Shown here piece by piece: positions 46,274 to 48,582 of a stretch of DNA of 64,000 nt. The stretch covers positions 1 to 64,000 of the forward strand of contig NZ_JAFBCW010000001.1 in NCBI RefSeq assembly GCF_016907915.1. Reading direction: 5' to 3'. The notes below the pieces were generated by a model. That model was not told the origin of the DNA. It did not search any database and saw only the letters and a list, made by a program, of their open reading frames with translations. Both the position numbers and the translations under genes were made by a program. This DNA comes from Desulforadius tongensis. GTDB lineage: Bacteria; Bacillota; Desulfotomaculia; Desulfotomaculales; Desulfohalotomaculaceae. Numbering within the stretch: position 1 is the first letter of the stretch; each line of letters begins with the position of its first letter.

Positions 46274-46581
46274 ATAAGGTTTAGTGAATTAATTCGACAC
46301 CAAAACATTGTTACCTTTATTTACAGACATAAAATGACCGAAACTGTATACTATTGCCTTTATATACCGCAAGATTAGTTAAATTTGCAAAAATAAAAGG
46401 GTTTAAGTAAATACATGTAAAATTTATAAAATTCATAACAATTGCAATGGGCTATAAATGTTAAGAATTGTAGGGGTGGTATTGATTTTGGGATTTATCA
46501 TATGAAGAAGGAATTATTTCCTCAAAACAAGAATGAAGTAAATCAAGAAACTGAAAAAAATAAAAAAATTTTTATAATCAG
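46274..46581. other. AT-rich intergenic DNA upstream of the small RNA
   Basis: No supported gene. A 27-codon Lys/Asn-rich frame (plus 46502-46585) has only a weak ribosome binding site and runs into the small RNA promoter. It probably contains the promoter of the membrane GAF gene. Confidence 0.5.
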
Positions 46582-46610
46582 TTGACAATGGGCATACTGA
46601 TTAATAATAT
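46582..46610 (+). promoter_or_regulatory. Promoter of the candidate small RNA
   Basis: TTGACA (46582-46587), 17-base spacer, TAATAT (46605-46610). A better-matching TATAAT at 46608-46613 has a 20-base spacer. Initiation is expected near 46617. Confidence 0.75.
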
Positions 46611-46616
46611 AATAAT

Positions 46617-46714
46617 GCAGGGCTTTTCAGGCACTGCTTAACTTAGGAGTAGGGCTTTTCAGGCACTACTCATGAAATTAAAACCACTCTAGTTCTTAAT
46701 AGAGTGGTTTTTTT
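46617..46714 (+). ncRNA. Candidate small RNA with twin hairpins and terminator
   Basis: About 98 nt between a promoter and a strong terminator, with no gene downstream on this strand. Hairpin 1 closes with GCAG (46617-46620)/CTGC (46634-46637) and hairpin 2 with GAGTAG (46647-46652)/CTACTC (46666-46671). Both present the same sequence: AGGGCTTTTCAGGCACT occurs at 46619-46635 and 46651-46667, 32 bases apart. The outer stems differ but stay paired, which indicates an RNA-level constraint. Hairpin 3 is the terminator. The apical sequence does not match CsrA (GGA), ANTAR hexaloop or guanidine-II (ACGR) motifs. It may bind a protein or another RNA; this is inference. Confidence 0.75.
46681..46714 (+). 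terminator. Terminator of the candidate small RNA
   Basis: AAACCACTCT (46681-46690) pairs with AGAGTGGTTT (46701-46710), running into seven Ts on the plus strand. Confidence 0.9.
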
Positions 46715-46775
46715 ATTGCTTAAAATCAACCAGCACAGACAAAATAAACCGGTTCTGGAGGGGGTGGGCGGCAGC

Positions 46776-47054
46776 CTAATTTTGTTTTGGCCCACCGAGA
46801 TTATATTTAACACGCAGTCTTTTTAAAATTTCCGGCGTATCGTCACCGCTGCCGGTATCCACCACTATTAACTGCCGGTGGGGATACTTTTTAACCAGCT
46901 GGCTGATAAAATACTCCACCCAGTCTTCCTGATTGCAGAACCATATTTCCAGCTGCCCGTCCGGCTGTTTTTGGGGTAAATAAAAATACTTCACCGCAGT
47001 CCACAGCAGCCACAGGGCAAAGGCGGCCGCAAATAATAAAAACTGTCCCGGCAT
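46776..47054 (-). CDS. Small membrane-anchored glycosyltransferase-like protein
   Basis: 92 residues: one N-terminal hydrophobic helix (about 4-27) and then a beta-alpha-beta segment ending in LIVVDTGSGDDTPEILKRL, which is the nucleotide-binding start of GT-A (family 2) glycosyltransferases. The rest of such an enzyme (DxD and acceptor parts) is missing. The downstream DNA does not continue it, so it is either an intact small protein or a remnant. ATG after GGGGGTGATGG. It is encoded 73 bases after metK and may be read from the same promoter. Function unknown. Confidence 0.7.
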   Translation of the reverse strand: MPGQFLLFAAAFALWLLWTAVKYFYLPQKQPDGQLEIWFCNQEDWVEYFISQLVKKYPHRQLIVVDTGSGDDTPEILKRLRVKYNLGGPKQN

Positions 47055-48469: not shown

Positions 48470-48582
48470 CTCCTCATCTTCCGCAGGCATCACACAGCCG
48501 GCGCAGGAATTGGCACCTTGCTCACCAGGTTGCCGGGTTTCATCGGGCCAGTCCCTCCACCTCTCTGGATGAGATAAGTTCC
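48470..48582 (-). ncRNA. SAM-I (S-box) riboswitch aptamer of metK
   Basis: On the minus strand the S-box core reads AGAGAGGTGGAGGGACTGG, then CCCGATGAAACCCGGCAACC, followed by GGTGAGCAAGGTGCCAATTCC and the later stems. P1 closes with CTCATC (48568-48573) against GATGAG (48473-48478). The strictly conserved kink-turn and pseudoknot sequences are recognisable. Together with the terminator at 48418-48443 it should switch metK off when S-adenosylmethionine is abundant. Confidence 0.96.

Follow-up and report, generated by a model that had tools for sequence, protein, structure and literature searches.

DUF3800 proteins have been described as a family of RNase H fold nucleases linked to putative noncoding RNAs, and they accompany some CRISPR loci, namely Cas12a2-like and type VI-F systems (PMC10910872; PMC12669027). 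They are widespread, several RNA motifs that are unrelated to each other are linked to them, and in the literature searched no function was found for DUF3800-linked RNAs. DUF3800 genes were present in 44 of 299 genomes sampled in the phylum, and four of 20 DUF3800 loci in the phylum carried Rfam DUF3800 RNAs (I, VII, VIII, and XI). Here, we describe an RNA element in a 64-kb stretch of Desulforadius tongensis DNA (the window), which is very probably a small RNA associated with DUF3800, belonging to a class that Rfam lacks and orphaned by decay of its DUF3800 gene.

Among the known DUF3800 RNAs, DUF3800-VII (RF02967) is likewise a small RNA adjoining a DUF3800 gene, with a closing stem around two hairpins, but its loops are different and its closing stem is much longer. 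DUF3800-I (RF02969) also adjoins DUF3800 and consists of several hairpins followed by a terminator; its hairpins, however, differ from each other. DUF3800-VIII (RF03075) and DUF3800-XI (RF02975) share the DUF3800 linkage and the phylum, but are single extended hairpins. None of these models, nor DUF3800-IX or the other Rfam DUF3800 models, matched the window element at E values up to 10 or the four relatives of the element, introduced below, at E values up to 1. The features that broadly define DUF3800-associated RNAs, an RNA gene beside a DUF3800 gene (5/5 loci) and a covarying structure, were both found. Since the RNA fails all Rfam DUF3800 models, it is alike in kind to these RNAs but a member of no described family. 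The "undescribed class" of the original prediction is thus too strong in that DUF3800-associated RNAs are already known (RF02967, RF02969, RF03075, and RF02975), and the class is undescribed as measured by Rfam. A scan at the curated gathering scores returned no family for the RNA element, and a permissive scan (301 bases, E up to 10) yielded matches far below the gathering scores and no DUF3800 family; the Rfam check that the prediction had proposed thus found no known family explaining the RNA.

The type III toxin-antitoxin RNAs ToxI, CptI, and TenpI consist of repeated elements, have their own promoter and terminator, and act with a nuclease partner. The window element is similar in its repeated RNA elements, its own promoter and terminator, and its predicted nuclease partner. 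However, the type III RNAs lie ahead of the ToxN, CptN, or TenpN toxin gene, whereas here the RNA lies behind the gene, and the partner is a DUF3800 protein (RNase H fold) rather than a ToxN-like one. We rejected membership in this group, as no gene follows the RNA on its strand and the partner is DUF3800. Guanidine-II riboswitches, CsrB, and ANTAR targets likewise present two or more hairpins whose apices are alike, an arrangement that the window element has in common with them. The prediction had set these systems aside, rightly so: the loop motif differs, Rfam shows no match, and a downstream gene is absent.

The element is read from the forward strand. Its promoter (46582-46610) combines the -35 box TTGACA (46582-46587), a spacer of 17 nucleotides, and the -10 box TAATAT (46605-46610). 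Hairpin 1 (46617-46637) is formed by GCAG-G-GC and GC-A-CUGC around the loop UUUUCAG (46624-46630), and hairpin 2 (46647-46671) by GAGUAG-G-GC and GC-A-CUACUC around the same loop (46656-46662). An intrinsic terminator follows at 46680-46717, with a 12-pair stem (46680-46711) and then a T-run, and no gene lies downstream of the RNA on the forward strand. The 17-base apex AGGGCTTTTCAGGCACT starts at 46619 and again at 46651, 32 bases apart; extended, the repeat comprises 20 nucleotides at 95% identity. Promoter, terminator, lack of a downstream gene, and the two identical apices had all been correctly read in the original prediction. That the two stems differ and pair also held true, but they are not "fully paired": in each, a G-A mismatch separates the outer stem (GCAG/CTGC; GAGTAG/CTACTC) from the inner pairs. 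Exact 17-nucleotide direct repeats spaced at most 60 nucleotides apart were found three times in the 64 kb, the twin-hairpin pair and two elsewhere, which is far beyond the chance expectation of ~0.0004 per 64 kb, an estimate obtained by extrapolating the frequency of 11-mer repeats in 60 dinucleotide-shuffled sequences. No second copy of the apex was found elsewhere in the whole source genome. The fold of the whole element including the terminator has a free energy of -36.0 kcal/mol (z = -4.6), but once the terminator is left out, the twin hairpins are only modestly unusual (z = -1.9).

Within the -35 box lies the stop codon (TGA, 46583-46585) of a reading frame at 46439-46585 on the same strand, which had been overlooked. 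This frame includes the 3' end of a DUF3800 gene, ~30 codons in length, with ~26 residues matched (approximately 46448-46525). Against a profile of four DUF3800 C-termini it ranked first of 2554 window frames (E = 0.00024), 12 bits above the next-best frame. The same arrangement recurred in other genomes. A sequence search of 60 relatives gave one credible match, in G015, where the promoter of the RNA begins identically (TTGACATGGG), both hairpins carry UUUUCAG loops, and the terminator differs in sequence; this RNA sits between a putative DAHP-synthase-like gene (named by sequence reading) and tRNA-Ser. In both the window and G015, an AT-rich stretch ends with the element, and a reading frame directly ahead of the element terminates at its -35 box; these truncated frames have similar C-terminal ends (GIDFGIYHMKKELF and GTDYGIYLMSKEKF, respectively). 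A search with the 76-amino-acid piece from G015 led to two intact relatives, one of 240 amino acids in G042 and one of 246 in G080, which match Pfam DUF3800 at 2.8e-12 and 4.7e-12; each of their genes is followed by a twin hairpin, with CUUCCAA in both loops, and a terminator. The G042 protein, used to search the phylum, led to a truncated DUF3800 C-terminus in G426, behind which lie a TTGACA promoter, two hairpins (UUUUCCG is the loop of the second), and a terminator. TTGACA(A)TGGG and a -10 box occupy the same position in G015 and G426 as in the window, and all four relatives have a terminator at the equivalent place, its sequence different from that in the window.

Sequence comparison thus shows that at each of the five known loci a covarying twin-hairpin RNA gene immediately follows a DUF3800 gene or what is left of one; the DUF3800 gene is intact in two loci (240 to 246 amino acids) and truncated in three, the window included. 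The truncation points differ among the window, G015, and G426, and the sequences ahead of the three truncated frames share no similarity, which identifies the frames as remnants; a conserved short gene in place of a truncated DUF3800 gene was rejected on this ground. The comparison supports the predicted existence of a separate small-RNA gene in which a hairpin is duplicated. The RNA is not "stand-alone," as had been claimed: given the profile match of the window frame and the relatives, each of which directly follows a DUF3800 gene or remnant, it is what remains of a gene-RNA pair. In the UUUUCAG subtype, the partner gene is broken in all three copies, so that an intact partner for this loop was not seen. 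Neither plasmids nor viral contigs yielded DUF3800 relatives, and no solved structure related by sequence to the DUF3800 proteins found here was detected. Two other protein relatives (L239 and L241) have different RNAs behind the DUF3800 gene, which start with a GGCUG closing stem (AGGCUGGUC / GAGGCUGAU) around one or two hairpins; these RNAs had no match in Rfam at E values up to 1.

Comparative covariation is the strongest evidence for the predicted structure of the twin hairpins. Eight distinct hairpins from the five loci were aligned without gaps, leaving out the first hairpin of G426, which has a different length. They follow a common plan of four pairs, one pair or mismatch, two pairs, and a 7-nucleotide loop; 94.6% of the cells are paired, and five of the seven pairs have changed on both sides. 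The covariation score was 0.73, compared to 0.28 in shuffles, none of 500 reaching it, and at most 0.21 when the alignment was slid; as the aligned rows are related copies, the shuffle count is not a probability. The 7-nucleotide loop is conserved (UUUUCAG in the window, CUUCCAA in two relatives) while the stems covary across the relatives, in line with the prediction that the apex is kept as the stems vary. An outer stem closing both hairpins appeared in the lowest-energy folds of G042 and G426 and, when a shorter stretch was folded, in that of G015; for G080, such a stem can be drawn. The window copy has largely lost this outer stem that its relatives can form: a few A-U pairs are left at best, and the stem is unformed in the fold.

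The two like loops are probably duplicate copies of a putative site at which the DUF3800 protein, a predicted nuclease with an RNase H fold, would bind. On what the RNA does there, our reading is tentative: transcribed from its own promoter, it may bind the DUF3800 protein and hold it in check in an antitoxin-like manner. The promoter would produce an RNA with two like loops, each a candidate site read by the protein, and the bound RNA would restrain the predicted nuclease. We favor this antitoxin-like role because the RNA and its promoter outlive the gene in three loci. Antitoxins can persist after toxin loss, and following loss of the DUF3800 gene from this locus in the source genome, the RNA may be a relic or may have been retained like an antitoxin outliving its toxin. 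The data do not separate the inhibitory role from a guide role or simple decay. The RNA is small, its duplicated loop is sharply defined, the partners are compact (240 amino acids), and orphans occur naturally, features by which the use that DUF3800 proteins make of their RNAs becomes directly testable.

Only somewhat less plausible than the antitoxin-like role is that in the source genome the element no longer functions and is decaying as a relic, a reading compatible with its identity as an orphan DUF3800 RNA. Truncation of the DUF3800 gene, which in G015 and G426 lies at other points than in the window, and the extensive loss of the outer stem in the window copy speak for decay, but the promoter, both hairpins, the loops, and the terminator are all intact. 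Moreover, hairpin 2 is identical to that of G015, across families, and nearly identical in G426; neutral decay of the hairpins at homologous loci, named in the original prediction as a refutation, is thus disfavored.

An inhibitor is also not the only role conceivable for the same gene-RNA pair. The RNA might instead be the guide or scaffold of a DUF3800 ribonucleoprotein belonging to a defence or mobile-element system, a possibility we regard as rather unlikely. It agrees with the company that DUF3800 proteins keep in Cas12a2-like and type VI-F systems (PMC10910872; PMC12669027), with the patchy spread, with the AT-rich accessory islets, and with the position of four of the five loci ~1 kb or less from a tRNA gene. 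However, the apex is conserved and the remainder structured, so that a variable guide is not obvious, PADLOC models matched none of the proteins, and the module borders are without repeats or integrase.

The loops themselves suggested a third, improbable explanation, in which DUF3800 is an RNase H fold anticodon nuclease cutting loops of the tRNA-Gly(UCC) or tRNA-Glu(UUC) type and the hairpins mimic a tRNA anticodon arm: the RNA, an orphan antitoxin after gene loss, would be a decoy that neutralizes the nuclease by offering it two copies of the target loop. CUUCCAA, present in both hairpins of G042 and G080, is the exact anticodon loop of tRNA-Gly(UCC), and UUUUCAG has positions 33 to 37 (UUUCA) in common with tRNA-Glu(UUC), but it deviates at positions 32 and 38, and the G-A mismatch after two pairs is unlike anticodon stem geometry. 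Such a core is present in only two of the four distinct loops here and also in ~5% of unrelated 7-nucleotide loops (42/782), and we therefore keep this idea, which arose after the loops had been seen, as a speculative lead. Least probable of all is a free-standing regulatory RNA, a protein titrator or base-pairing sRNA, located behind the remnant by coincidence: it would account for a promoter and terminator retained after gene loss, but the DUF3800 linkage holds in 5/5 loci, with intact genes in two, and absence at the same place in close relatives and rarity in the order are unlike a housekeeping regulator.

The distribution of the RNA was surveyed with a covariance model (R2) built on four loci with trimmed linkers; the models and the loci retrieved with them have sequences in common. 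In 113 genomes of the order, R2 detected exactly four that carry the RNA, one in each of four families; the fifth locus is in another order, and the known set of five loci is small. R2 found no new convincing member in the phylum sample, where marginal matches lacked the loop pair, and near matches in G058 and G110 were rejected as apparent coding sequence resembling the RNA by chance. Matches to the exact twin-apex pattern comprised at least 120 stretches in GTDB contigs, and the stem test gave no convincing relative among the matches listed; the pattern also occurred in 71 stretches in IMG/VR, and hairpin-specific patterns had no matches in viral contigs. In the window, the module lies in an AT-rich accessory insert between a GAF gene and a 92-amino-acid ORF (46325-46765, borders approximate), with ~30% G+C versus 52% for the window. 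The flanks of the insert align with the same-genus genome G002, but the insert itself does not; the RNA is absent from same-genus genomes, G002 having unrelated sequence at this spot. The patchy distribution and the low G+C content point to horizontal spread of the gene-RNA module. A tRNA gene lies within ~1 kb of four of the five modules (Ser, Ala, Arg, and Gly; L225, L278, L279, and L280); the window has none. No integrase or repeats, including a direct repeat of a tRNA end, were found at the module borders.

The source genome contains a further broken DUF3800 gene (L277, G000:C52:1878-2546) on a small contig that also carries a serine recombinase, and no twin hairpin was found at that gene. 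Positions 46274-46775, which separate the MASE9/GAF gene from the 92-amino-acid ORF, resemble a hot spot; in G002, this interval is occupied by unrelated sequence that includes a short ORF and an inverted repeat. The 92-amino-acid protein (46776-47054, reverse strand) has a membrane segment and a partial match to family 2 glycosyltransferases, and its ORF stays beside metK in relatives. The SAM riboswitch preceding metK (48471-48575, reverse strand) is ordinary.
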